Assembly: GCA_017889625.1 (NCBI GenBank)
Contig: JAGGAD010000055.1
Location: 1-41,071, forward strand
Reading direction: 5' to 3'
Source: Bacillota bacterium
GTDB taxonomy: Bacteria; Bacillota; Negativicutes; Sporomusales; CTSoil-080
DNA length: 41,071 bases
The translations under genes were made by a program, and so were the position numbers. Every line of letters begins with the position of its first letter. Position 1 is the first letter of the stretch. Below are positions 1,577 through 16,293 of the stretch, one piece after another. The notes under the pieces were generated by a model. That model had not been told where the DNA came from. It saw only the letters and a program-made list of their open reading frames with translations, and ran no database searches.

Positions 1577-2257
1577 ATGTCTAACTGGTGGCTGGCGCTG
1601 TTAGATTTAATTTTTCCGCCTTGTTGTCCGGTATGTGATGCCTTGGTAGAAGATAATGGGCTTATTTGTACTAAATGTTTGGCAGGTATTGTTCATCAAC
1701 GAGAAATCAATGTGACTATCCGTCGGCTAAGTGCTTTAGATGGCTGCCGTGTGCTGTTAGATTATACCGGTGGAGCTAGAATGTTATTGCAAGGTATCAA
1801 ATTCAAAAAAAAAGTAAAATATGCTACACATTTAAGAAGGCTATTAACTGATAAACTGGATATTGCTCGGTTGCCCGTTATTGATGTTGTTGTGCCGGTA
1901 CCGCTTCATGCCAGGAGATTAAAGGAGCGGGGCTTTAATCAGACCACACTTATTTTTGGAAAGTGGGCTGAGAAGGAAGGAATACCGTGGGCTGATGCAT
2001 TAGCAAGGGTTGCAATTACAGTACCGCAGTGGACGTTGGAAGCCAAAGAGCGGCGTAAAAATGTAAAGGGCGCGTTTATAGTAACGCGCCCTGAATCGGT
2101 TAAAGGTAAAACCATATTACTTGTTGATGATATTGTTACAACCGGTATTACACTTAATGAATGCGCAAAAACTTTAAAAGCAAGTGGAGCAAAGGCAGTA
2201 TTTGGCCTGGGGTTAGCTGGTGGAGCAGACGACGGTTCTAGCCAAGAGCTTCGATAA
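1577..2257 (+). CDS. comFC: ComF family phosphoribosyltransferase-like protein
   Basis: 226 residues, full length for the ComFC family. The N-terminus has a small zinc-binding region (CCPVC at 16-20 and CTKC at 32-35). The C-terminal half is a type I phosphoribosyltransferase fold with the PRPP-loop motif LLVDDIVTTG near residues 181-190. ComFC is needed for natural DNA uptake in Bacillus-type competence and is kept in many non-competent bacteria; its substrate is not firmly known. The ATG follows the recD2 stop without a gap and has an AGGAGA ribosome site inside the recD2 end (1561-1566). No comFA or comFB is visible, unlike in B. subtilis. The last 20 bases overlap the 3' end of the convergent HD-GYP gene. 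Confidence 0.92.
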   Translation: MSNWWLALLDLIFPPCCPVCDALVEDNGLICTKCLAGIVHQREINVTIRRLSALDGCRVLLDYTGGARMLLQGIKFKKKVKYATHLRRLLTDKLDIARLPVIDVVVPVPLHARRLKERGFNQTTLIFGKWAEKEGIPWADALARVAITVPQWTLEAKERRKNVKGAFIVTRPESVKGKTILLVDDIVTTGITLNECAKTLKASGAKAVFGLGLAGGADDGSSQELR

Positions 2258-2840
2258 AGGCTTTAATAACGTCCGGGTCAAATGCGGTGCCAGCGTGATC
2301 ACATAGTTCCTTTACTGCTTCATTTTTGGTTTTGACCCAATGCTCTGTGCAAGGGTTAATAAAGCGGTCATAGTAGTTAGCCACAGCAATAATACGGGCT
2401 CCGAGGGGAATATTTACTCCTTTTAGGCGTTTGGGATAACCTTTGCCATCCCAACGTTCGTGATGATAACGAATATAAGGAATTATATCTTGACATGAGG
2501 GGATATTTTCTAACATAGAGCTACCGGCATTGCAGTGGTTTTTATAGGTGCTCATTTCCCGGCTAGAGAGATAAGGTATCTTTGAGAGAATTGCGTTGGG
2601 GACGGTAAGGTGGCCAATATCATGCAAAAGGGCTGCTCCGCGGATACGTTCGATTTCTTCCCGTGGTAAGCGCATTTTAGCGGCAATACTTACAGCGTAG
2701 TTGGCGACTTGATGACAGTGGAGATAGAGCTTGGAATTTTTAAGTTCGACAAGGGGCATAACCATGCTGAGTATTTCGCTAAAGGCTAAACAGTCATTGA
2801 AATCCGCTTTTGCCGGTGGTATCAGAGTTAACATATACAC
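2238..2840 (-). CDS. Divergent single-domain HD-GYP phosphohydrolase
   Basis: 200 residues, almost all of it the HD-GYP domain; there is no sensor or receiver domain. Seen directly: H41, H73-D74 in LLHDIGH, H102, H126-H127 and the signature HHERWDGKGYP (126-136). HD-GYP proteins typically hydrolyse cyclic di-GMP, which would fit a place beside flagellar genes. Two usually conserved positions differ: the Lys of HDIGK is His77, and the Asp of the VADxYDA motif is Asn155 (VANYYDR). The usual RPYR tail of that motif is also missing, so activity is uncertain. The start is GTG at 2840, about 10 nt after an AAAGG site; ATG at 2834 is an alternative. Convergent with comFC, overlapping it by 20 bp with no terminator between. 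Confidence 0.85.
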   Translation of the reverse strand: MYMLTLIPPAKADFNDCLAFSEILSMVMPLVELKNSKLYLHCHQVANYAVSIAAKMRLPREEIERIRGAALLHDIGHLTVPNAILSKIPYLSSREMSTYKNHCNAGSSMLENIPSCQDIIPYIRYHHERWDGKGYPKRLKGVNIPLGARIIAVANYYDRFINPCTEHWVKTKNEAVKELCDHAGTAFDPDVIKAFIEALG

Positions 2841-2977
2841 AACAAAACTGCCTTTCGTCCTGGTATTGTATCTACATTAATTTTGCTATTCGCAATAATT
2901 ATCCTGCTGGATTTTGTAAAAAAATGTCCTGGATTCGAAAAAATATGATTAAGTGTTCTCGAGGTATAGTAAGAGTG

Positions 2978-3002
2978 TGGTATAATTTTTACAGGAAGGG
3001 GG
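2978..3002 (+). promoter_or_regulatory. Extended -10 promoter and ribosome site of yvyF
   Basis: TGGTATAAT at 2978-2986 is an extended -10 element (TGn plus TATAAT). No good -35 hexamer lies 16-18 bp upstream, as expected for an extended -10 promoter. A purine-rich ribosome site (AGGAAGGGGG, 2993-3002) precedes the ATG at 3010. If transcription starts near 2993, the leader would be very short. Confidence 0.5.
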
Positions 3003-3009
3003 CCGAGCA

Positions 3010-3426
3010 ATGAAGCTTGCTAATTGCAATCAATGTGGTGCTGTATATGTTGAAAACCCGCAGGGGTTGTGTTTGAATTGCTTGCGGGAAGAAGAGGAAG
3101 CTGAGGATAAGGTAGCAGGGTTTTTACGGGAAAAAGATCGGGCTTCGTTAGAAGATATTCATCAAGGTACAGGTGTAAAATACAAAATTATTTTGCGTAT
3201 GCTTAAGCGTGGGAGGATTAGTAGTAACGCAGTTATTGAGTATCCTTGTGAAACGTGTGGGAGTCTCATAAGTGAGGGAAGAATATGCGAAAATTGTAGT
3301 AACAATATTACGCAACAGATTAAACATGAAGAATGGCGTCGCCAGGTTGATACTAAGCCTAAACCTAAGGACGATGGTAAAGTGAGGCCGCGGCTTCACA
3401 TAAAGGATTTGTTGGATAATAAGTAG
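3010..3426 (+). CDS. yvyF: YvyF-like flagellar-region zinc protein
   Basis: 138 residues. It matches the small flagellar-operon protein that lies just upstream of flgM in many Bacillota (YvyF, TIGR03826-type). There are three cysteine pairs or more: C6/C9 and C21/C24 form one probable zinc knuckle, and CETC plus CENC around residues 80-98 form another. Between them (about 30-75) is a helix-turn-helix-like stretch rich in charged residues, so a role in nucleic-acid binding or regulation is possible but unproven. Position before flgM matches the B. subtilis comF-yvyF-flgM order. Separated from flgM by a terminator, so it may be its own transcript. Confidence 0.85.
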   Translation: MKLANCNQCGAVYVENPQGLCLNCLREEEEAEDKVAGFLREKDRASLEDIHQGTGVKYKIILRMLKRGRISSNAVIEYPCETCGSLISEGRICENCSNNITQQIKHEEWRRQVDTKPKPKDDGKVRPRLHIKDLLDNK

Positions 3427-3502
3427 ATTAAGATAAGGTGCTATTGCTAGATAATCGACTTAAATTGACGGAATCAGTAGTTAATCTATTAAAATAGCCA
3501 TT

Positions 3503-3531
3503 GGCGGGGATTAAAGTCCCCGCCTTTATTT
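3503..3531 (+). terminator. Intrinsic terminator after yvyF
   Basis: GGCGGGGA (3503-3510) pairs with TCCCCGCC (3517-3524) across a 6-nt loop, followed by TTTATTT. The hairpin also spans the -35 element of the candidate sigma-28 promoter of flgM. Confidence 0.85.
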
Positions 3532-3538
3532 ACGATAC
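3512..3538 (+). promoter_or_regulatory. Candidate sigma-28 (SigD) promoter of the flgM operon
   Basis: TAAA at 3512-3515, 15 nt, then TACGATAC at 3531-3538, compared with the sigma-D consensus TAAA-N15-GCCGATAT. The CGATA core matches. It lies inside and just after the yvyF terminator and 36 bp before the flgM start. A sigma-28 promoter before flgM is expected, since FlgM is the anti-sigma-28 factor. Confidence 0.5.
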
Positions 3539-3574
3539 ACTAATAAGAGGTTTTATGTTAGCGAGGTGTCGACG

Positions 3575-3865
3575 GTGATTATTTCAGGAAAATCAGTTCA
3601 GGGTGTTATCAAGACCTATGCTGAACAAAATAAAGCGGGGAAGATTTCTCAGGTAAAAAAGGCTAGTGTTGGGATGAAACCTGATGAAGTAATCTTGTCT
3701 TCCCAGGGGCAGGAGTTCGGACAAATATATCGGACCTATAAAAATATTCCGGAAGTTCGTCAAAACAAAGTTAAGGACATTAGTGAGCGTATTTCACGAG
3801 GCGACTACAATGTTTCGGCGCAAGAAGTTGCTACAAAGATTATTAATGGTATTACGCCTAATTGA
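3575..3865 (+). CDS. flgM: Anti-sigma-28 factor FlgM
   Basis: 96 residues. FlgM binds and holds the flagellar sigma factor until the hook-basal body is complete, then is exported. The C-terminal half shows the sigma-binding helices (EVRQNKVKDISERI, then GDYNVSAQEVATKII), typical of FlgM; the N-terminal half is low in structure, as in the family. I chose GTG 3575 because GAGG at 3563-3566 sits 8 nt upstream. The upstream in-frame GTG at 3566 overlaps that ribosome site and would add only three residues. First gene of the flgM-flgN-flgK-flgL run; flgN begins 20 nt downstream. Confidence 0.9.
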   Translation: MIISGKSVQGVIKTYAEQNKAGKISQVKKASVGMKPDEVILSSQGQEFGQIYRTYKNIPEVRQNKVKDISERISRGDYNVSAQEVATKIINGITPN

Positions 3866-3885
3866 TACATAAATGGAGGAGTATG

Positions 3886-4383
3886 ATGAGAGATAACTGG
3901 GGAAAGCTCACAGAGCTATTGGATGCTACTATTGAATTATATACCGCTATTCTGGCGTTAAGCAAGGCTAAGCGGGAAGCTTTGGTTGAGGTAAAGACCC
4001 AGAAACTTGAGTCGATAACGCAACAGGAAGAGTTGTTAATTATTAAGGTAGGTAAGTTGGAAGTGGCGCGGGAAAAAATTATGGTAGAGATTGCTCAAGA
4101 AAATGGCCTCGAACTTGAAGTGTTGACCCTTTCTAAACTGGAAGATCTTGCTGAGAATGGTCAGGCTGAACAATTGGCAAAGTTGGCTGGTGATTTTGAT
4201 CGGATTATGACGGAATTGGTTCCGTTAAATCGATTAAATACCGAATTAATCGAGCAAGCGTTGGGGTTTATTAATTTTAATATCAATGTTTTAGCTCAGA
4301 GTACGGCGCTTAGCACGTATGCTCCACAAGGACAAAACCAAAATGGAACAGAGGTGCGTAAATTAATTGATCAAAGGATTTAG
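3886..4383 (+). CDS. flgN: Flagellar export chaperone FlgN
   Basis: 165 residues, predicted almost wholly helical with long heptad-like stretches. FlgN is the cytosolic export chaperone for the hook-filament junction proteins FlgK and FlgL, both of which follow directly. Family assignment rests on length, helical character (KLTELLDATIELYTAILALS at the start, a long charged middle helix, LIEQALGFINFNINVL near 130) and position between flgM and flgK. The GGAGGA site at 3875-3880 is best spaced for ATG 3886; ATG 3883 would also read in frame, and the upstream TTG 3862 is ignored because it precedes the ribosome site. Confidence 0.88.
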   Translation: MRDNWGKLTELLDATIELYTAILALSKAKREALVEVKTQKLESITQQEELLIIKVGKLEVAREKIMVEIAQENGLELEVLTLSKLEDLAENGQAEQLAKLAGDFDRIMTELVPLNRLNTELIEQALGFINFNINVLAQSTALSTYAPQGQNQNGTEVRKLIDQRI

Positions 4384-4440
4384 TTGTAAAAGCAGAAGTA
4401 GTATCCGAAGTGAAAGTGCTTTGGTAGGGAGAGGGTTAGT

Positions 4441-6201
4441 GTGAGGTCTACTTTTTCAGGATTAAATACAGCTACGCGGGGCCTGTATGCTCAACAGATG
4501 GCACTTGATACCACAGGTCATAATATTTCCAACGCTAATACCGAGGGCTTTTCTCGCCAAAGGGTGAATACGGCGACCACTCGTCCTGATACCATTTATG
4601 GCGGTATTGGTTCCATGCAGGTAGGAACAGGGGTTTCAGTGGACACCGTTACCCGTGCCAGAAACACTTTCCTTGATCAGCAGATGTGGAAAGAGTCTTC
4701 GGCACTTGGATATGGTTTGACTTCAGATAATACCTGGGGAAAGGTAGAAGGAGTTTTTAAGGAAGAAGCTCCAGATTTTGGCGTTCAGACAGTATTAAAT
4801 AATTTTTGGAACTCGTGGCAAACTTTGTCTACGTATAGTTCTAATAACAGTTCTCGTACTGCGGTCCGAGAGCGGGGGGCTGAATTGGTAGGTGCTATCA
4901 AACATGCCGGCCAGCAATTAGAAAATTTAGTAAAAGACACCAATGAAAACTTGGTAGTTAAAGTTGCGGATATCAATGATATGTCGTCGCAAATATTTTC
5001 TTTAAATCGTCAAATTAGTAATATTGAAGTTAATGACAGGGATCATGCTAATGACTTGCGAGATAAACGAGATTTGATAGTTGATAAATTATCGCGTATT
5101 GGTAATGTCCGGGTTTATGAAAATAATAATCATGGTTATATTGTTCAACTTGGTAATGTGACGCTTGTTGATGCTAGTCGCGTTACGAAACTAGGCGTAG
5201 CGGCTTCACCGGATCCAGATTATAATTATGAAGTTAGAGACGTTGTGGTAGAGGGAAGTGTTCCTCTTCAAAAAGTTGAAGTTAATTCTGGCGAACTGCA
5301 TGCTATGCAGGAAGCCAATACGACATTAGCTAAAGGTTATATGGATAAGCTGGCAACAGTAAGCCGGTTTTTGTTACAGGAGTTCAATGGTGTTCATCGT
5401 GCTGGTTATGGTAGTGATAATTCTACTGGTCACAATTTTTTTGGAACTGCAAATGTTGATTATAAAGCGGCTTCTCAAATGAAAAATGGCGAATGGATGA
5501 AGGCTTTAAAGATTAATGATGAACTTTATGATGCGAATGGATTAGCTAAAATTGCGGCTAAAACATCCGAAATAAAGTCGGTAATCCAGTCTAACGCTAA
5601 CGGTGGAAAAGGAACAGTAAGTGGTACGTATATACCGTCGGCAGGAAATGCCGATAAGTATATGAATTTTCAATTGAGTATGACGGCCGGTGGCCTTCAA
5701 TATACGATTCGGGATGAAAAAAACAATGTGCTGGAAACTAATCTGGCTACAATTGACGGTGCTGGTTCGTATACTTTGCCGTATGGTTTGACTTTTAGTA
5801 TTGCATCGCCGGGAGCTTCAGTAGGTGATAGTTATAGTTTCAGTGTTCCGCAGGGCAATGCGAGCGGGGATAATGCCACTCTTTTGGCTAATGCATTGAA
5901 AGAGCCAACGGATGCAAATTCATCAGTGCTTAAAGGGGCGGCATTGGATGATTATTACTCGTCAATGATTGCGGACCTTGGAATTAAAGCGCAGTCTCGT
6001 AAACGTCTGGCGGATAATCAGCAAGCGTTGGTAAATCAAATTAATGGCTGGCGGCAGTCAGTTAGTGGTGTTAATATTGATGAAGAAATGACGGATATGA
6101 TCCGCTTCCAGAAAGGCTATAATGCCGCCGCTAGGGTTGTGACCAGTATGGATGAAATGTTGGATAAATTGATTAACGGTACTGGATTAGTTGGACGATA
6201 G
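4441..6201 (+). CDS. flgK: Flagellar hook-filament junction protein FlgK (HAP1)
   Basis: 586 residues. FlgK caps the hook and joins it to the filament through FlgL; exported by the flagellar type III apparatus. The N-terminal flagellar rod/hook signature is clear (FSGLNTATRGLYAQQMALDT, GHNISNANTEGFSRQRV, residues 4-45), as is the C-terminal coiled region (NIDEEMTDMIRFQKGYNAAA, then VVTSMDEMLDKLI). The middle third is the variable domain. GTG start with AGGGAGAGGG about 6 nt upstream. The gap to flgN is 57 bp with no terminator, and flgL starts 13 bp after the stop. Confidence 0.97.
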   Translation: MRSTFSGLNTATRGLYAQQMALDTTGHNISNANTEGFSRQRVNTATTRPDTIYGGIGSMQVGTGVSVDTVTRARNTFLDQQMWKESSALGYGLTSDNTWGKVEGVFKEEAPDFGVQTVLNNFWNSWQTLSTYSSNNSSRTAVRERGAELVGAIKHAGQQLENLVKDTNENLVVKVADINDMSSQIFSLNRQISNIEVNDRDHANDLRDKRDLIVDKLSRIGNVRVYENNNHGYIVQLGNVTLVDASRVTKLGVAASPDPDYNYEVRDVVVEGSVPLQKVEVNSGELHAMQEANTTLAKGYMDKLATVSRFLLQEFNGVHRAGYGSDNSTGHNFFGTANVDYKAASQMKNGEWMKALKINDELYDANGLAKIAAKTSEIKSVIQSNANGGKGTVSGTYIPSAGNADKYMNFQLSMTAGGLQYTIRDEKNNVLETNLATIDGAGSYTLPYGLTFSIASPGASVGDSYSFSVPQGNASGDNATLLANALKEPTDANSSVLKGAALDDYYSSMIADLGIKAQSRKRLADNQQALVNQINGWRQSVSGVNIDEEMTDMIRFQKGYNAAARVVTSMDEMLDKLINGTGLVGR

Positions 6202-6213
6202 GGGATGGTATAA

Positions 6214-7188
6214 GTGCGAATTTCAAATAATATGGTAGTATATAATTTTTTAAACAGCATGGATAAGTCCCAAAATCGGATGAATAATATTCAAGAACAG
6301 CTATCTGATGGGAAACTAGTTCATCGTCCCTCGGACGATCCTATTCGGGCGTACCGTGGTATGCGGTTTAATGTCGATTTAGTAATGAATGATCAGTATC
6401 AACAAAATATGAGAGATGCTTTGGCTTGGATGAATCAGACTGACAGCGCGTTATCAGATTTGAGCGATCTCACTCAGCGGGCTAAGGAACTTGTCATTCA
6501 GGCGATAAGTGCAAACCCGGAAATTGGACAAGAAGCGTTGGGGGCCCAGGTGGATGGCCTGATTAATCAAGCTGTACATGATGGTAACACTCAAATCGGG
6601 GATCGGTATATTTTTGCTGGTCAGCAGGATAAGGTACAAGATGGGCCGTTTAAACGGATGACAATTAATGTGGATGGGGTTCCCAAGGAGTATGTAGTTT
6701 ATCGTGGCGATCTGAATAAGGTTTCAATGTCAATTCAGGCTGGTGGTCATGAGCCTAAACGAGATAGCGTTAACGTTACTGGCGAGGAAGTTTTTGGACC
6801 GATGACTATGGTTACGGATAGCGTTACTGGGCAAACCTATGCTACCGCCAGTTACTTTACTGATATGCTCAATATGAAAAATGATTTGGCAAGTGGCAAG
6901 GCCGATCTTGTGAAATTATCCAATGTAGGTTTAGCTCAAATTGATGCAGCTCATGATCGGTTGCTTTTAGCACAGTCAAAGATTGGCGCACGCGTGGCCA
7001 GCTATCAGATGGCGGAAGGGATGATGCGTGCTACTAATGGCACTATTACAGAAAATGCATCCTCCAACGATGATGTTAATATTGCCAAGGCTACGATTGA
7101 CTTCAAGAATAATGAGAATGTTTATAATGCCGCTCTAGCAATAGGTTCCAAAATTATGCCGCCGTCCTTAGTTGATTTTCTTAAATAA
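6214..7188 (+). CDS. flgL: Flagellar hook-filament junction protein FlgL (HAP3)
   Basis: 324 residues. Second junction protein between hook and filament. The N-terminus (MRISNNMVVYNFLNSMDKSQ, LSDGKLVHRPSDDPIRA) and C-terminus (DDVNIAKATIDFKNNENVY, then NAALAIGSKIMPPSLVDFL) are flagellin-like D0/D1 segments. The centre has the FlgL-specific NTQIGDRYIFAGQQ stretch near residue 123-136. GTG start preceded by GGGGATGG. Same operon as flgK (13 bp gap) and the YviE-like gene (17 bp gap). Confidence 0.96.
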   Translation: MRISNNMVVYNFLNSMDKSQNRMNNIQEQLSDGKLVHRPSDDPIRAYRGMRFNVDLVMNDQYQQNMRDALAWMNQTDSALSDLSDLTQRAKELVIQAISANPEIGQEALGAQVDGLINQAVHDGNTQIGDRYIFAGQQDKVQDGPFKRMTINVDGVPKEYVVYRGDLNKVSMSIQAGGHEPKRDSVNVTGEEVFGPMTMVTDSVTGQTYATASYFTDMLNMKNDLASGKADLVKLSNVGLAQIDAAHDRLLLAQSKIGARVASYQMAEGMMRATNGTITENASSNDDVNIAKATIDFKNNENVYNAALAIGSKIMPPSLVDFLK

Positions 7189-7204
7189 GGGGAGGCGTGG
7201 ATAA

Positions 7205-7507
7205 GTGATTCATGGAAGATTAACTATTGATCAAACACCATGTCGTGCATCCTATGGGATATTGACGCCAACGGCACGTCTTTGGCAAACAGTTGCTGAA
7301 AATCAAACTGAATTTTTAGAGAGTCTTGCTGAAACTAGCGAGAACGGGGATCGTTTGGCTAGAATTTGGAATAAAGCTAATGCTATTGAAGAAATTGCGG
7401 CTGAAGCCTATGGCTATCATCCAAAGGAAGTCGCGGTAAAGTGTATCGAACGACCTATTATCAACTGGGATCCTGAGGGGGGCAATTTAGTTAATATTCG
7501 TGTATGA
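7205..7507 (+). CDS. Small YviE/DUF6470-like flagellar-operon protein
   Basis: 100 residues, no signal peptide or membrane segment. It occupies the place of yviE between flgL and fliW in B. subtilis. Weak sequence resemblance supports the link: an N-terminal RLTIDQTP stretch and a C-terminal PIINWDPEGGNLVNIRV, like the W-x-P-G ending of DUF6470 proteins. At half the usual length of YviE it is either a shortened form or an unrelated small protein. GTG start with GGGGAGG at 7190-7196, 8 nt upstream. Function unknown; co-transcription with flagellar genes is the main clue. Confidence 0.7.
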   Translation: MIHGRLTIDQTPCRASYGILTPTARLWQTVAENQTEFLESLAETSENGDRLARIWNKANAIEEIAAEAYGYHPKEVAVKCIERPIINWDPEGGNLVNIRV

Positions 7508-7545
7508 TTGCAGGAAATTTCTAAACCTAAATAGAGGTGAAACTA

Positions 7546-8004
7546 ATGGTGATCAAGTCAACTCGACTGGGGAAACTTGATGTTCCGAAAGATTTAATTA
7601 TCAAGTTTCCCATGGGATTGCTTGGTTTTAATGACGAAGTGTTGTTTGCTTTGGTACCGCAGGGGGAAAACAGTCCATTTGCGTTTTTGCAATCAGCGTC
7701 GGATCCGGATCTTACTTTTTTTGTAGTTGAGCCGTTTACCTTTTTTTCAGACTATGAGTTTGAGCTAAATGAAGAGTATCAACAAGAACTTGAGTTGGTT
7801 GATTCGTCCCAAGTGAAAATATACAATATCGTAACGATTAAGGATAAAGTGGAGGAAATGACCGCAAATCTCTTGGCACCAGTTATTGTTAATATGGAAA
7901 CTAAAACAGCCAGACAGGTGGTACTGGAGAAGGTTACCTATTCTACTCGTCATCGGATTTTTCCTCAGGGGTTGTCTCACAGCGCAGACGGGGGGGACAA
8001 GTAA
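7546..8004 (+). CDS. fliW: Flagellar assembly factor FliW
   Basis: 152 residues. FliW binds newly made flagellin and also CsrA; when flagellin is exported, freed FliW removes CsrA from the flagellin mRNA. Family motifs: LGKLDVPKDLIIKFPMGLLG at about 7-26, FAFLQSASDPDLTFFVVEPF at about 43-62, and the LLAPVIVNMETKTARQVVL strand region near 110-128. The start is ATG 7546, placed 7 nt after AGAGGTG; the earlier GTG 7537 lies inside that ribosome site. The stop codon overlaps the csrA start by one base (TAATG), so the two partner genes are translationally coupled. Confidence 0.95.
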   Translation: MVIKSTRLGKLDVPKDLIIKFPMGLLGFNDEVLFALVPQGENSPFAFLQSASDPDLTFFVVEPFTFFSDYEFELNEEYQQELELVDSSQVKIYNIVTIKDKVEEMTANLLAPVIVNMETKTARQVVLEKVTYSTRHRIFPQGLSHSADGGDK

Positions 8005-8252
8005 TGCTTGCTCTTACTCGAAAGGTTGGAGAACAGATTATAATTGGTGATAATATTGTAATTACTGTCGTAGACGTTAAGGGCGATGGAGTTCGTTTAG
8101 GAATTGATGCTCCGAGGGAGATCCGGATTTACCGTGGCGAAATTTATCAGGCTGTAGTTGCTGAAAATAAAGAAGCAACGGTGCCGCTTGATGTTGGGTG
8201 TCTCAATGTACTTAAAGATATTGTGAAGATACCTTCTAAAAAGAACGGATAA
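8004..8252 (+). CDS. csrA: Carbon storage/translational regulator CsrA
   Basis: 82 residues. RNA-binding dimer that recognises GGA in hairpin loops and blocks ribosome binding; in Bacillota its best known target is the flagellin mRNA. The family core is intact: MLALTRKVGEQIIIGDNIVI, GVRLGIDAPREIRIYRGEIY. The C-terminal tail is about 10-20 residues longer than the short gamma-proteobacterial form, common in FliW-bearing bacteria. Coupled to fliW (1-nt overlap) and followed at once by a terminator overlapping its stop codon. The candidate target site lies 230 bp downstream, in the flagellin leader. Confidence 0.96.
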   Translation: MLALTRKVGEQIIIGDNIVITVVDVKGDGVRLGIDAPREIRIYRGEIYQAVVAENKEATVPLDVGCLNVLKDIVKIPSKKNG

Positions 8253-8281
8253 ACCTTGCGGCAGCAAGGTTTTTGTTTTTT
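8251..8281 (+). terminator. Intrinsic terminator after csrA
   Basis: AAACCTTGC (8251-8259) pairs with GCAAGGTTT (8264-8272) across a GGCA loop, followed by TTGTTTTTT. It ends the flgM-csrA transcript and uses the last two bases of the csrA stop codon. Confidence 0.9.
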
Positions 8282-8384
8282 GGACAGATAATTTATAAAG
8301 TTAATTATAGCAATAATATTGAGCTTTTATGAGAAAACAGAAGAATATTGAAGACAACTTATAATTATGGCCTAATTTGAAGCT

Positions 8385-8410
8385 TAATTATTGCCCGGAA
8401 TGCTCGATAT
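8385..8410 (+). promoter_or_regulatory. Candidate sigma-28 promoter of flagellin
   Basis: TAAT at 8385-8388, 14 nt, then CTCGATAT at 8403-8410; the sigma-D consensus is TAAA-N14-16-GCCGATAT, so the -10 matches 6 of 8. It predicts a start near 8417 and an untranslated leader of about 107 nt. Confidence 0.6.
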
Positions 8411-8481
8411 AATGTTTGAAGATGTCTAGTATGGCTTTATTACTGGCGGCCGACAGCGATAAGGCCTTAGACATAATAAGA

Positions 8482-8516
8482 GGGGCAAGGATGCCCCCAC
8501 CTAAATTCAAGGAGGA
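8482..8516 (+). promoter_or_regulatory. Candidate double CsrA site in the flagellin leader
   Basis: A perfect hairpin GGGGCA (8482-8487) / TGCCCC (8492-8497) presents the tetraloop AGGA (8488-8491). The CAAGGATG across its top is the CsrA recognition pattern. A second GGA lies in the Shine-Dalgarno CAAGGAGGA (8508-8516), 9 nt before the ATG. B. subtilis hag mRNA has the same two-site layout, one upstream hairpin and one site on the ribosome binding site. Confidence 0.75.
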
Positions 8517-8524
8517 ATAAAATA

Positions 8525-9688
8525 ATGATTATTAATCACAACGTTGCGGCTCTTAACACTTACAACCGTTTGGCTGCTAATAACACGCAGACTAACAAAT
8601 CTCTCGAAAAATTGTCTTCAGGTCTTAGAATTAATCGCGCTGGCGATGACGCTGCAGGCTTGGCAATTTCAGAAAAAATGCGTGGTCAGATTCGTGGTCT
8701 TGACCAAGCAGTTCGTAACTCCCAAGATGGTATATCACTTATCCAAACCGCTGAAGGTGCTTTGAATGAAACTCACAGCATTCTCCAACGTATGCGTGAA
8801 ATAGGCGTTCAGTCTGCAAGTGATACCAATACCAACGAAGACCGTGGCCAACTGCAAAAAGAAATGGATCAGTTGACCAACGAAGTTGACCGTATCGGTG
8901 CTACTACTCAGTTCAATACTAAGAACCTGATTGATGGTAGCCTGAGCGGCGTTAGCACTTCGGTTGAAGGAAAAATGGTTTCAGTTCAATCCAATCAGAA
9001 TATTGATTTTCAAGCTACCCCCGAAGGTGCTAACGCTATAAAGAACATTGCAGATACTGACACCGTACGTATCCGTGCTACTGGTAAAGATGATAAAGGT
9101 GCGCTGCAATTTGAAGTGAAATCTGCTCTGGGTGACGTTAAAGACGTAACCGTTGATGCAGCTGCTGGTACTGTTAAACTTGGAGCGGACACTATTGGTA
9201 CGATCAAGGGTGATAAATGGAATGTTGGTGATACCCTGACCTTGAGCTTTACTAAAGCAGAAGCTGCTAGCGAAACTGACAATGCTTTGCACTTCCAAAT
9301 TGGTGCTAATACTGCTCAGGAAATTACTGTAGGTATTGGCGACATGCGCGCTGCTGCTATTGGTGTAAGAAATAAACAAGGCGAAAGCTTGCGTGTTGAC
9401 ACTCAGTATGGTGCTGAAGCTACCATTGCTCAAATTGATGCAGCTATGACCAAGGTTTCAACTCAGCGTTCGTCTTTGGGTGCTTATCAAAATCGTTTGG
9501 AGCACACCATTAACAACCTCGGCGCTTCTTCTGAAAACTTGACTGCTGCTGAATCGCGTGTTCGCGACGTAGATATGGCTAAAGAAATGATGAGCTTCAC
9601 TAAGAGCAACATCATTAGCCAGGCTGCGACTTCAATGTTGGCACAAGCTAACCAACAACCACAAGGCGTTCTGCAATTGCTCCGCTAA
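8525..9688 (+). CDS. hag: Flagellin
   Basis: 387 residues, the filament subunit. The conserved D0/D1 ends are textbook: MIINHNVAALNTYNRL, LEKLSSGLRINRAGDDAAGL and ISLIQTAEGALNETHSILQR at the N-terminus; AESRVRDVDMAKEMMSFTKS and ISQAATSMLAQANQQPQGVL at the C-terminus. A modest variable domain of roughly 140 residues lies between about 140 and 280. The codon choice differs from neighbours (more AAC, CGT, CTG, GAA), as expected of a very highly expressed gene rather than of transfer. It has its own promoter and terminator, so it is monocistronic, and its leader carries the candidate CsrA sites. Strong AAGGAGGA ribosome site. Only one flagellin gene is seen in the window. Confidence 0.98.
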   Translation: MIINHNVAALNTYNRLAANNTQTNKSLEKLSSGLRINRAGDDAAGLAISEKMRGQIRGLDQAVRNSQDGISLIQTAEGALNETHSILQRMREIGVQSASDTNTNEDRGQLQKEMDQLTNEVDRIGATTQFNTKNLIDGSLSGVSTSVEGKMVSVQSNQNIDFQATPEGANAIKNIADTDTVRIRATGKDDKGALQFEVKSALGDVKDVTVDAAAGTVKLGADTIGTIKGDKWNVGDTLTLSFTKAEAASETDNALHFQIGANTAQEITVGIGDMRAAAIGVRNKQGESLRVDTQYGAEATIAQIDAAMTKVSTQRSSLGAYQNRLEHTINNLGASSENLTAAESRVRDVDMAKEMMSFTKSNIISQAATSMLAQANQQPQGVLQLLR

Positions 9689-9699
9689 TATGGTTCTGT

Positions 9700-9735
9700 C
9701 AGGCCCTCTCGCGTTAAGTGAGGGGGCCTGTTTTA
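9700..9735 (+). terminator. Strong intrinsic terminator after flagellin
   Basis: A 13-bp stem (9700-9712 with 9718-9730, two G-T pairs, GTTAA loop) followed by TTTTATCTT. Confidence 0.93.
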
Positions 9736-10130
9736 TCTTAAGGTGAAACTATGCTGAAGAATTTAAAGCATCGAGTAAAAGAGTGGAAAATGTTGTGAAT
9801 GCTTCTTCTCAATCACAAACTTTGGTGGTTTTAAAAAATTATTTACTAAGCGGACTTATTTTATTGACCTTGGATATACGAATCTATCGGACCCATATTT
9901 ATCGAATTTATTTTGTTAATGACATGCGAAAATTGGTTGAGAATTTCTCACTGACGATAAAATTTGATTACTTTTCATTAGGTAATGATGTGTAGAAAAC
10001 GTTTTTGATCGTTTGATTAAAAATAAAATTCCGTTACGGTATATGGTGTGGGATAATTTCGGCTGGATGTTATTTAAGTAATTTGTAGATATATGTAGAA
10101 AATTAAACATGATAAATATGCTATTTTTTC
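9736..10130. other. AT-rich gap between flagellin and flaG
   Basis: About 395 bp without a convincing gene. It begins with a 15-codon frame at 9751-9798 that has a well-placed AAGGTG ribosome site. A 70-codon frame at 9783-9995 has no ribosome site and no family resemblance. The rest is AT-rich with no repeat I can see. Confidence 0.6.
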
Positions 10131-10158
10131 TAAAGATTTTTTACAAACCATACGATAT
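10131..10158 (+). promoter_or_regulatory. Candidate sigma-28 promoter of flaG-fliD
   Basis: TAAA at 10131-10134, 16 nt, then TACGATAT at 10151-10158 (6 of 8 against GCCGATAT). It lies 35 bp before the flaG ATG and resembles the site before flgM (TACGATAC). Confidence 0.6.
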
Positions 10159-10193
10159 AAGTTATATAAAGTATGTTTGTGAGGTGGCTATAT

Positions 10194-10562
10194 ATGGACG
10201 TTAAAATAGCTGGAGTTTTTGATTCAGTGGGGACCCCTGGCATGGGTGACAATAGTTTAAAGCAGGGAAGTGGTGTTCGCGGTGTAGGTTCACAAGAGGA
10301 TGCTAGCCGGGAAATAAATAATAATAAGCGCGAAATCACGGAACAAGAACTTGATAAAATGACTCAGGATATGAATAAGTTTATGCAGGATTTAAATGCG
10401 GATTTACACTTTAAACTTCACGAAAAGACTCAAAGACTAATGGTACAGTTAGTAGATTCGCGTAGTCAGAGTGTACTGAAGGAGTTCCCTCCACATGAAT
10501 TTTTAGATACTATTGCTAAAATCAGCGAAGCAGTAGGAGCATTTTTGGATAAAAAGGTGTAA
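10194..10562 (+). CDS. flaG: FlaG family flagellar protein
   Basis: 122 residues. FlaG is a small protein encoded upstream of fliD in many bacteria and influences filament length; its biochemical role is unclear. The N-terminal 45 residues are low-complexity (Gly, Ser, Asn). The conserved C-terminal half has DMNKFMQDLNADLHFKLHEK, RLMVQLVDSRSQSVLKEFPP and the helix FLDTIAKISEAVGAFLDKKV. ATG 10194 is placed 6-7 nt after GAGGTGG; the upstream in-frame start at 10173 precedes the ribosome site and is rejected. fliD follows 40 bp later. Confidence 0.9.
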   Translation: MDVKIAGVFDSVGTPGMGDNSLKQGSGVRGVGSQEDASREINNNKREITEQELDKMTQDMNKFMQDLNADLHFKLHEKTQRLMVQLVDSRSQSVLKEFPPHEFLDTIAKISEAVGAFLDKKV

Positions 10563-10602
10563 CCGTATTGACTATGAATAAACGGTTGCCAGGAGGTGTT
10601 GT

Positions 10603-12075
10603 ATGGCTGGACAAAGAATATTTGGTCTGTCCGGGTCAGGTATGGATGTCGACTCTATGGTTAAGCAACTAATGCAAGCCAAGCGTGCGCAATTTAATAA
10701 GTTGTATCAAAACCGGACATTGTTAGAATGGAAGAAATCGGACTACACGGATACAAATAAGAATATTAATGATTTCAGAAATACATTGGTTGGGTATAAA
10801 ATGTCGGGAGCATTATCAATAAGAACGGTATCGTCAACTAAGGCGGAAGTGGCGACCGCAACGGCTAATGCTGAGGCTAATAATATAAGTCATACCTTAT
10901 CAGTAGAACAGCTTGCTACCGGTGTCCAATTGGGTAGTGTCGGAAATATAACTAATGGTGCTAGTAAAGATACTATTGCCAAACAATTTTACGGCGGTAA
11001 TGCACCAACAGAACCAATTACGCTATCGATTGCCAATGGTACCGCATCAGCTAAGCTTACAATAGATCCTAATAAGAGTATTTATGATGTGGTTAATCAG
11101 ATTAATTCTGCTAAAATTAATGTTACAGCGAATTATGATGCGACGCTCGACCGATTCTTTATTAATACTGCGAATACAGGGGCAAACAGCGGCATTGATT
11201 TTTCGGGAAGTGATATTAATGGCTTGGATTTTATAACTAATAAATTAGCTATAAGCAGTGAACCGAAGAATGGGGTAGATGCTAAGTTTAGTTTAGACGG
11301 GGTAGGGATGACTGAGGAATCCAATAGTTTTACTATTTCTGGTGTGTCATATAATCTTTCGGCGTTGGGTGAAACTAAACTTAATGTTGCTACTGATGTG
11401 GATAAGACGGTTGCTAGCATTAAGGGCTTTGTTGATGCTTATAACAAGATGTTAGACTCTGTAAATGACAAATTAGCTGAACCTCGGTATCGGGATTATA
11501 TGCCGCTAACGGATGATCAAAAGAAAGACATGAAGGAAACTGAAATTACCGCTTGGGAAAAGAAAGCCAAAAGTGGAATGTTGGCTAAGGATCCGACACT
11601 ACAAAATTTTGTTTATGGTATGCGCAGTGCGCTGTCGACGCCTGTAGATGGAGTAAGTGGTACTTATAATAGTGCAGCTTCTCTTGGGATAACATCTGGG
11701 GCTTATACTGAGGAAGGGCACGTTTATCTTGATGACTCGAAATTACGGGCAGCGATTACGGCTGATCCTGATGCGGTGTTGAAGGTATTTGGCTCAAATG
11801 GTGGCGCTAAAAACGGTATTGCCTTTAAATTGGATAGTGTAGTTGATACTGTACGGAAACAGATTACTACTGTTGCTGGCAGGTCGGCTGCGAATGATAA
11901 TACTAGTTCAATCGGACGCCAGATTAATAGTTACACTTCAGATATAAAGGAGAATGAACTTAATTTAAAAACGGCGGAAAATCGTTACTACCAAGAATTC
12001 AGCGCAATGGAAAAGGCAATTAATAAGATGAATTCGCAAAGTTCGTGGATTTCCCAGCAGATGAGTGGTAAATAA
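10603..12075 (+). CDS. fliD: Flagellar filament cap protein FliD (HAP2)
   Basis: 490 residues. FliD caps the growing filament and folds incoming flagellin. N-terminal domain: GLSGSGMDVDSMVKQLMQAK (4-23) and the long helix through LLEWKKSDYTDTNKNINDF. Middle: the ANAEANNISHTLSVEQLATG strand region. C-terminal domain: IKGFVDAYNKMLDSVNDKL near 275, then a helical end with SSIGRQINSYTSDIKENE. AGGAGG at 10591-10596 precedes the ATG by 6 nt. Between flaG and fliS in the usual order. Confidence 0.96.
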   Translation: MAGQRIFGLSGSGMDVDSMVKQLMQAKRAQFNKLYQNRTLLEWKKSDYTDTNKNINDFRNTLVGYKMSGALSIRTVSSTKAEVATATANAEANNISHTLSVEQLATGVQLGSVGNITNGASKDTIAKQFYGGNAPTEPITLSIANGTASAKLTIDPNKSIYDVVNQINSAKINVTANYDATLDRFFINTANTGANSGIDFSGSDINGLDFITNKLAISSEPKNGVDAKFSLDGVGMTEESNSFTISGVSYNLSALGETKLNVATDVDKTVASIKGFVDAYNKMLDSVNDKLAEPRYRDYMPLTDDQKKDMKETEITAWEKKAKSGMLAKDPTLQNFVYGMRSALSTPVDGVSGTYNSAASLGITSGAYTEEGHVYLDDSKLRAAITADPDAVLKVFGSNGGAKNGIAFKLDSVVDTVRKQITTVAGRSAANDNTSSIGRQINSYTSDIKENELNLKTAENRYYQEFSAMEKAINKMNSQSSWISQQMSGK

Positions 12076-12106
12076 CCTGGATGGATTATATTAAGGGGGA
12101 CATTAT

Positions 12107-12499
12107 ATGAATGCTGCTACAACGGCGAATGCATATAAGACTCAGCAAATAATGACTGCTTCTAAGGAAGAATTGACCCTGATGCTATATAATGGTGCCA
12201 TCCGGTTTGCTAATGAGAGTTTTAAGGCTATGGAAGCAGGCGACATGGAAAAAGCTCACACTGCAAATTTGCGAGCTCAAGAAATAGTTCAGGAGTTTAT
12301 AGTTACGCTTGATATGAATTATGACATAGCAAAAGACATGTATTCGCTCTATGAATATATAAAGTTTAGATTAGTTCAAGCTAATATTCAAAAGGATAAT
12401 GGGCAACTTAGTGAAGCTCGGGATATGCTTGCTGAGCTTAGAGATGCGTGGTTTCAGGCAATGAAGCAAGTACGGGTTGCGGAGGCTGTAGGAAAATGA
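12107..12499 (+). CDS. fliS: Flagellar export chaperone FliS
   Basis: 130 residues, full length. FliS is the four-helix chaperone that keeps flagellin unpolymerised in the cytoplasm. Signature stretches: NAYKTQQIMTASKEELTLML and YNGAIRFANESFKAMEAGD near the N-terminus, then LDMNYDIAKDMYSLYEYIKF near 75-95. AAGGGGGA ribosome site before the ATG. Its stop overlaps the next start by 4 nt (ATGA), so the following FliT-like gene is translationally coupled. Confidence 0.96.
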   Translation: MNAATTANAYKTQQIMTASKEELTLMLYNGAIRFANESFKAMEAGDMEKAHTANLRAQEIVQEFIVTLDMNYDIAKDMYSLYEYIKFRLVQANIQKDNGQLSEARDMLAELRDAWFQAMKQVRVAEAVGK

Positions 12500-12837
12500 G
12501 CGATAGGTGTCAGCAGGTTTGCGGGCATTGGCAGGATTATCTGTTTTTGACTAAGGAAATTGGTAAGTTCTTAGCCCAGGATAATGTTGGCATGATATTA
12601 AATTTATTGGAACAACGTGAGCGGCTACAGGAAGAAATTGAGCGGGTTGAAGATGGTGAGTATAGGAACTCTGTGGAAGGGCAACAATTTATTAGGCAAG
12701 TTGGGAAGTATAACGACATGTTGAGATTACACATGGAAAAGTTGCGCAATCAGATAGAAAAACAGCAAAAGATAGCGGTGGCTTATGACGGACTGATACA
12801 AGGAGTGCGTGGTAATCAAATGGATCAAAAGGGCTAA
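12496..12837 (+). CDS. FliT-like flagellar chaperone
   Basis: 113 residues, helical and charged, with a probable coiled coil (LLEQRERLQEEIERVEDGE and LRLHMEKLRNQIEKQQKIA). Position directly after fliS and size match FliT/YvyT-type FliD chaperones, which are too divergent to be certain by eye. Start ATG 12496 is inside the fliS stop (ATGA overlap); an earlier in-frame start at 12448 would overlap fliS by 52 nt and is rejected. Last gene of the flagellar block. Confidence 0.75.
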   Translation: MSDRCQQVCGHWQDYLFLTKEIGKFLAQDNVGMILNLLEQRERLQEEIERVEDGEYRNSVEGQQFIRQVGKYNDMLRLHMEKLRNQIEKQQKIAVAYDGLIQGVRGNQMDQKG

Positions 12838-12860: not shown

Positions 12861-12889
12861 TTGCATTTTTAGCGATTGAAACTTATAAT
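12861..12889 (+). promoter_or_regulatory. Strong sigma-A promoter of the structured RNA candidate
   Basis: TTGCAT (12861-12866), 17 nt, TATAAT (12884-12889). The expected start is 12896-12897, exactly where the closing stem of the RNA begins. Confidence 0.8.
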
Positions 12890-12896
12890 GTGGGGT

Positions 12897-13131
12897 AAAG
12901 AACCTTTTGCTTAGGTCTGTGGTTGAAAGTCGAGGCCAGTCGCAGGCGAAACGATCCACATAAGAAGTCCAAGGTGACTTTGAGCATGGTGCGGCTTAGA
13001 TGTAAGTCCTGCCGACCTAGTGTAGATGTAGGTCGAGAGGGGTAGTAGTGAGGAGATTGAGTTCTTAGTAGCAAAACTTCCAGCAGGCGAGTGTGGGGGC
13101 AAAGACCAGGTCGGCTAAGCGATGGTTTTTT
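12897..13131 (+). ncRNA. Structured RNA candidate of about 235 nt, class not recognised
   Basis: There is no coding frame with a ribosome site here, but the two ends pair. AAAGAACC (12897-12904) pairs with GGTTTTTT (13124-13131, one G-T pair) and GCTTAG (12909-12914) with CTAAGC (13115-13120). The right side ends in a T tract that could act as its own terminator. Inside are several local hairpins: TGTGG/CCACA (12918-12922/12956-12960), AAGTC/GACTT (12965-12969/12976-12980), GG-CTTA/TAAG-T-CC (12993-13009) and CGACCTA/TAGGTCG (13013-13019/13029-13035). A consensus promoter fires at the first paired base. The 3' end is 33 nt before the zinc-ribbon ATG, so a leader function is possible. I do not see the signatures of tmRNA, SRP RNA, RNase P RNA or T-boxes. 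6S RNA or the raiA-motif RNA (an hpf/raiA-type gene lies 2.6 kb downstream) are untested options. Confidence 0.65.
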
Positions 13132-13163
13132 AGTATCATGGTAAAGGTGAGGGGATATCGTTA

Positions 13164-13460
13164 ATGGCTTTCGAGGACAAAACGTTAAAGTGCAAAGATT
13201 GTGGAGCTGACTTTGTGTTTTCAGCTGGTGAACAGGAGTTTTATGCTGAAAAAGGGTTTGAAAATGAACCGGCGCGTTGCCGTGATTGCCGTGATGCGAG
13301 GAGACGTAGCCGTGATGGCGGTGAAGCCCGTCCGCAACGCGAAATGCATGAAGCCGTTTGTGCTGAGTGTGGAGTAACAACGCAGGTGCCGTTCCGACCG
13401 CGCAATGATCGTCCGATTTATTGTCGCGATTGTTTTGCTGCGAAGAAGAACGATTTTTAA
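13164..13460 (+). CDS. Zinc-ribbon protein (zf-Tbcl type)
   Basis: 98 residues with four CxxC knuckles: CKDC near 10, CRDC near 40, CAEC near 70 and CRDC near 88. It would bind two zinc ions as two ribbons. The first half (DKTLKCKDCGADFVF, AGEQEFYAEKGF) is the conserved zinc-ribbon family seen across Bacillota; the function is unknown, with nucleic-acid binding plausible from the Arg-rich linker (RRRSRDGGEARPQR). The ribosome site GGTGAGGGG lies 9 nt upstream. No separate promoter is obvious between the structured RNA and this gene, so it may be read through from 12897. Confidence 0.88.
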   Translation: MAFEDKTLKCKDCGADFVFSAGEQEFYAEKGFENEPARCRDCRDARRRSRDGGEARPQREMHEAVCAECGVTTQVPFRPRNDRPIYCRDCFAAKKNDF

Positions 13461-15762: not shown

Positions 15763-16293
15763 ATGGCTATGACTGTACGAGGTAAAAACATCGAAGTTAC
15801 GCCGGCATTAAAAGATTATGTTGAAAAACGTATTGGCAAAATCACCAAGCACTTTGAAACCTTGAATGACATTATTGTAATATTGACTGTGGAAAAAGGT
15901 CGCCATATTGTAGAAGTTACGGTGCCGGTTAACGGTATGCTACTACGAGGTGAAGAGTCAACTACCGATATGTATGCATCTATCGATCTTGTTATTGATA
16001 AGCTTGAGAAGCAAATCGAAAAATATAAAACAAAATTGACTCGAAAATTACGTAACAGTGGTGTGCTTAAAGGTGAGGTTGCTAGCAGTGGACATGATTT
16101 GGAGGTAGATGAGTTTAAGATCGTCAAGACAAAACGTTTTGCTGTAAAGCCGATGACTACTGAAGAAGCTATTATGCAGATGAATTTAATAAATCATGAC
16201 TTTTTTGTTTTTACCAATGCGGAAACTGAGGATGTAAATGTCCTCTATCGGCGTAAAGATGGTAATTATGGGTTAATTGAACCTGAATTCTAA
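15763..16293 (+). CDS. hpf: Ribosome hibernation-promoting factor, long form
   Basis: 176 residues, the long HPF type that alone dimerises 70S ribosomes into inactive 100S particles in stationary phase. N-terminal ribosome-binding domain (about 1-100): VRGKNIEVTPALKDYVEKRI and DMYASIDLVIDKLEKQIEKY. C-terminal dimerisation domain (about 120-175): IVKTKRFAVKPMTTEEAIMQ and NHDFFVFTNAETEDVNVLYR. ATG with an AAAGGAG site. A sigma-H-type promoter lies directly upstream, linking it to the transition to stationary phase and sporulation. In B. subtilis it also lies near secA and prfB, as here. Confidence 0.96.
   Translation: MAMTVRGKNIEVTPALKDYVEKRIGKITKHFETLNDIIVILTVEKGRHIVEVTVPVNGMLLRGEESTTDMYASIDLVIDKLEKQIEKYKTKLTRKLRNSGVLKGEVASSGHDLEVDEFKIVKTKRFAVKPMTTEEAIMQMNLINHDFFVFTNAETEDVNVLYRRKDGNYGLIEPEF

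Follow-up and report, generated by a model that had tools for sequence, protein, structure and literature searches.

The 41,071-nt window (the whole stretch of DNA that was analysed) carries a full-length, above-threshold member of the already described raiA (ModT) RNA family at positions 12906–13123 of the + strand. It is very probable that this RNA, the single raiA RNA of its genome, is read from a promoter at 12861–12889, adopts a two-pseudoknot fold, acts in trans and also heads a unit with the adjacent zinc-ribbon gene zf_Tbcl. In the Rfam covariance-model search, the RNA matches the full RF03072 model (E = 7.4e-50), and raiA is the sole Rfam family that reaches its gathering score in the window. 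An earlier note on this DNA had presented the RNA as unrecognised, a label that the match overturns, and had suggested a raiA-motif RNA as worth testing by an Rfam search, a guess that proved right. A genome search finds the single copy in the source genome; one raiA RNA per genome is also found in 83 of 100 relatives (80 above the cut-off), nearly all from the same class. The features of the locus are as follows.

1577–2257, + strand: comFC-like gene (Pribosyltran and DZR_2), the usual upstream neighbour
12861–12889, + strand: RNA promoter, TTGCAT (12861–12866), 17-nt spacer, TATAAT (12884–12889)
12897–12904, + strand: 5' strand of the outer closing stem, AAAGAACC (P1 extension), pairing with 13124–13131
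12906–13123, + strand: raiA (ModT) RNA, RF03072 model positions 1–209, 193.8 bits against a gathering score of 101.3 bits
12938–12944, + strand: 5' strand of pk1 (P3 loop AGUCGCA), pairing with 12990–12996
12987–12988, + strand: 5' strand of pk2, pairing with 13100–13101
12990–12996, + strand: 3' strand of pk1 (pk-loop, UGCGGCU), pairing with 12938–12944
13008–13087, + strand: P4 (100% paired) and the branched domain of P6, P7 and P8 (covarying, 89–100% paired)
13124–13131, + strand: 3' strand of the outer closing stem, GGTTTTTT, with a T tract absent in most relatives, pairing with 12897–12904
13144–13166, + strand: conserved zf_Tbcl leader and ribosome site, AGGTGAGGGGATATCGTTAATG, with a GAGGG-type site in nearly all 70 relatives that share the gene order
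13164–13460, + strand: zf_Tbcl gene, 98 aa (PF13451 and PF23477; Pfam E-values 8.8e-25 and 3e-20)
15763–16293, + strand: raiA/hpf protein gene (PF02482 and PF16321), the usual downstream neighbour

The fold was examined in an alignment of 61 Negativicutes copies, on a structure that combines the Rfam model with the published cryo-EM description. Across the 54 base pairs of the raiA fold, including both pseudoknots, 97.2% of the pair cells are paired, and 27 of the 54 pairs show compensatory (two-sided) changes. None of 500 shuffled controls pairs as well, and sliding the partner columns by one lowers the pairing to less than 45%. All variable helices among P1, P3–P8 and the two pseudoknots covary. 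By comparison, single-sequence folding gives −74.6 kcal/mol (z = −1.99), which is mildly better than chance and would prove little alone; the comparative evidence, namely the Rfam E-value and the covariation, is decisive for a structured RNA. In addition, no open reading frame of at least 60 aa lies on the + strand inside the RNA; the earlier note had seen no coding frame with a ribosome site there.

These data bear on whether the element might be 6S RNA, belong to some other Rfam family or fold by chance alone. It shares with 6S RNA (RF00013) the length range of stable RNAs and a long-range closing stem, and the modest folding z-score is all that speaks for any of these readings. The covariance-model search, however, returns no RF00013 match at the gathering score, nor any up to E = 10 around the RNA, and the fold is branched with pseudoknots where 6S RNA is a rod, as the earlier note had pointed out. 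Together with the strong covariation and with raiA as the only family at its gathering score in the window, this leads us to reject 6S RNA and the other Rfam families, and the probability of the whole group of readings is negligible.

Both pseudoknots are well conserved. In pk1, 98.8% of the cells are paired, with C–G replaced by U–A in 10 sequences and A–U by G–C in 4; in pk2, the figure is 95.9%, with U–A to C–G changes in 5 sequences and G–C to A–U changes in 2. The two-pseudoknot fold of the raiA RNA from Clostridium acetobutylicum has been determined by cryo-EM (PMC11751092), and the RNA described here resembles it in having a 7-pair pk1 between the P3 loop and the pk-loop and a 2-pair pk2 at equivalent places, both covarying. 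It differs in that, in this lineage, pairing of the strands AAAGAACC and GGTTTTTT lengthens its closing stem outward. The closing stem is present as first described from the letters, with GCTTAG (12909–12914) pairing with CTAAGC (13115–13120) inside this extension. Its inner part is 95.9% paired with compensatory changes, whereas the outer extension, which lies beyond the Rfam model and consists of two helices (70% and 53% paired), covaries less strongly than P1. The transcript would form the compact raiA core with its two pseudoknots, which P1 closes together with, in this class, a less well conserved outer stem. The earlier note also remarked on three AGGTC copies (12913, 13030 and 13108) with a single GACCT partner (13014). 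The count stands, but the alternative pairing or pseudoknot proposed from it does not, since 13014 and 13030 form hairpin P6 and the other two copies belong to P1; the actual pseudoknots lie elsewhere.

The RNA has its own promoter. A TTGCAT-17-TATAAT element had been predicted to fire at the first base of the closing stem and is found there, the stem beginning at 12897, 7 nt past the –10 box. Nearly all 61 relatives have a promoter in a similar position before the RNA (mean match 9.3/12 versus 7.8 in shuffles). From the –10 spacing, transcription from this housekeeping-type promoter likely starts at 12896–12897. The position-conserved promoter and the covariation of helices and pseudoknots uphold the view of a real, branched, structured RNA with its own promoter. 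The predicted 3' end fared differently. Only 19 of the 70 relatives with zf_Tbcl downstream have at least six T in a run of eight after the closing stem, and most relatives show GGTCCTTAA or a similar sequence there. The T tract is thus not conserved in most relatives, so the suggestion that folding itself defines the transcript end is weak, and we rejected a self-terminating closing stem. The mature end may instead arise by partial termination or by trimming at P1.

The next gene, zf_Tbcl, begins about 33 nt past the RNA, as noted before for a zinc-ribbon gene. It lies directly 3' of the raiA RNA in 43 of the 61 Negativicutes copies and in 26 of 43 fetched hits from a 398-genome phylum-wide draw that was not selected by zf_Tbcl; in another, independent collection, for which the protein served as query, raiA RNA lies upstream of 49 of 80 zf_Tbcl loci. 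The gap between the model end and the zf_Tbcl start codon is 31–46 nt in 67 of 70 adjacent cases, and conservation of the GAGGG(G)AT ribosome site is striking. The two also occur apart, so their association, though frequent, is not obligatory, and we discarded zf_Tbcl as an obligatory partner: raiA RNA is found in genomes with no zf_Tbcl at all (e.g. G072, G076 and G088), and family f18 of the same class (e.g. G037, G054 and G063) keeps zf_Tbcl with the RNA absent, suggesting RNA loss in that family.

Our scans for transcription signals suggest that zf_Tbcl may be read from the promoter of the RNA. No hairpin terminator was found in the gap between RNA and gene in any of the 70 adjacent pairs, whereas 18 of the 33 raiA RNAs not followed by zf_Tbcl have one within 100 nt, a contrast inflated by the gap being far shorter than the 100-nt control search (within about the first 45 nt, the figures are about 8/33 versus 0/70) and drawn from relatives that, here as in the adjacency counts, are not independent. 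Likewise, the promoter signal just before zf_Tbcl is at the shuffled level (7.00/12 versus 7.17), as compared with 9.12 before the RNA. Gene order, the lack of a hairpin terminator in the gap and the lack of a promoter signal before zf_Tbcl together point to a shared transcript, in which transcription probably runs on into zf_Tbcl and the RNA heads a two-gene unit. This is distinct from ModT of C. difficile, which has two termination sites and is followed by a PTS antiterminator gene (PMC11706538); here, zf_Tbcl follows at about 33 nt with no recognisable terminator.

Such an arrangement could also mean that the RNA is a riboswitch-like leader controlling zf_Tbcl in cis, with no free RNA made in this lineage. 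The constant short gap with neither terminator nor promoter found in it, the conserved ribosome site and the typing of the raiA family by Rfam as 'Cis-reg; riboswitch' would fit this reading. However, the zf_Tbcl ribosome site is predicted to be equally accessible whether the RNA is present or absent (median 0.30 versus 0.31), which gives no sign of a simple translational switch, and we dropped occlusion of this site by the RNA. The gap holds no conserved expression platform, many raiA RNAs are not next to a zf_Tbcl gene, and ModT mutants are complemented in trans (PMC11706538), which argues against a cis-only role. We regard a purely cis-acting leader as unlikely.

Published work, on C. difficile and C. 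acetobutylicum only, describes ModT/raiA as abundant, stable and acting in trans, with a role in how cells leave exponential growth and with growth-transition, sporulation, aggregation and c-di-GMP phenotypes (PMC11706538); mutant phenotypes and cryo-EM structures are available (PMC11706538, PMC11751092, PMC12286853). By homology, the RNA described here would likewise be stable and abundant and act in trans, helping to time the exit from exponential growth. The earlier question of a free RNA or a leader was well put, and both probably hold: the gene layout speaks for zf_Tbcl and the RNA sharing a transcription unit, and the RNA of relatives is free and trans-acting. We give most weight to a free RNA with the added role of heading the zf_Tbcl unit, less to an RNA–protein particle and less again to a purely cis-acting leader.

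In the case of a particle, the RNA and the neighbouring zf_Tbcl protein would form a ribonucleoprotein, with co-transcription keeping both in step. The adjacency in all three collections, its retention even where the RNA is short (see below) and chemical probing that suggests protein binding by ModT in cells (PMC11706538) are consistent with this. Against it stand the genomes with RNA and no zf_Tbcl, the f18 genomes with zf_Tbcl and no RNA, and the multi-copy nature of the gene, five copies of which occur in the source genome. The predicted protein structure lends no help either: the AlphaFold model of zf_Tbcl (pLDDT 84.9, pTM 0.43) has no match in the PDB at E ≤ 0.001, and the best Z-score, 3.3, is tied among several unrelated zinc fingers, an uninformative outcome that we set aside as a functional hint. 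We consider such a particle unlikely, and a free RNA heading the zf_Tbcl unit remains our preferred reading.

The phylum-wide draw also yielded a half-length form of the RNA, seen as ten short raiA hits of 113–120 nt that score 42–59 bits, below the Rfam cut-off. In the nine loci that were read (L218–L220, L222–L224 and L228–L230, about 3995–4125 in each), the short RNA retains its promoter, P1 (including its 3' side), a P3 whose GCCG loop has a CGGC partner downstream, and a hairpin resembling P5; P4 and P6–P8 are absent. In all nine, zf_Tbcl is the next gene, and the syntenic position is unchanged. A model made from the nine sequences matches 20 of the 22 genomes of their order; L231–L240 are further loci. 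The sequences are so alike that covariation among them is thin (one pair), and a pseudoknot in the short form is only suggested. Two apparent cases are of another kind. In G058, the shortening is an assembly gap of N. In G033 (L226, RNA at about 4001–4105, minus strand), an internal deletion runs through P3–P7 with the promoter and zf_Tbcl intact; being confined to one genome, it was not counted as a short variant, and the RNA is possibly a decaying copy or an assembly error.

A wider proposal, which we hold as doubtful, is that in much of Bacillota raiA RNA and zf_Tbcl constitute a single functional unit expressed as one transcript, as an RNA–protein particle or through control of the zinc-finger gene by the RNA, and that the P4/P6–P8 half is dispensable, one order keeping only the P1/P3/P5 pseudoknot core beside zf_Tbcl. 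What our analysis adds to the known raiA family is the placement of zf_Tbcl and the half-length variant; neither is mentioned in the raiA/ModT literature searched, a search outside which Soares 2024, the main raiA paper, falls. A conserved neighbour that apparently shares the transcript is a candidate protein partner and a way into the molecular activity of raiA/ModT, and a natural half-length raiA offers a minimal core to probe and to complement with.

The wider neighbourhood is also that of a raiA RNA. PMC11706538, citing Soares 2024, gives the commonest neighbours of raiA RNA as comFC on the upstream side (74%) and, downstream, the gene for the raiA protein (66%). The present RNA agrees with the family in its full-length model match, P1 and P3–P8, both pseudoknots, a promoter of its own, and the flanking genes for comFC (upstream) and the raiA protein (downstream); it differs in that a flagellar block separates comFC from the RNA. 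The local order is comFC, the flagellar block (flgN, fliW, flagellin, fliD and fliS), the RNA, zf_Tbcl, an ABC transporter pair, csp, raiA and secA, and the comFC-to-secA order recurs through the class with variations. The flagellar block, inside 1577–12837, apparently splits the usual comFC–raiA neighbourhood in many Negativicutes. At its comFC end, a gene on the minus strand (2238–2840) encodes an HD-GYP type protein with an intact HHExxDGxGYP motif, likely a c-di-GMP phosphodiesterase; ModT has been tied to c-di-GMP levels (PMC11706538).
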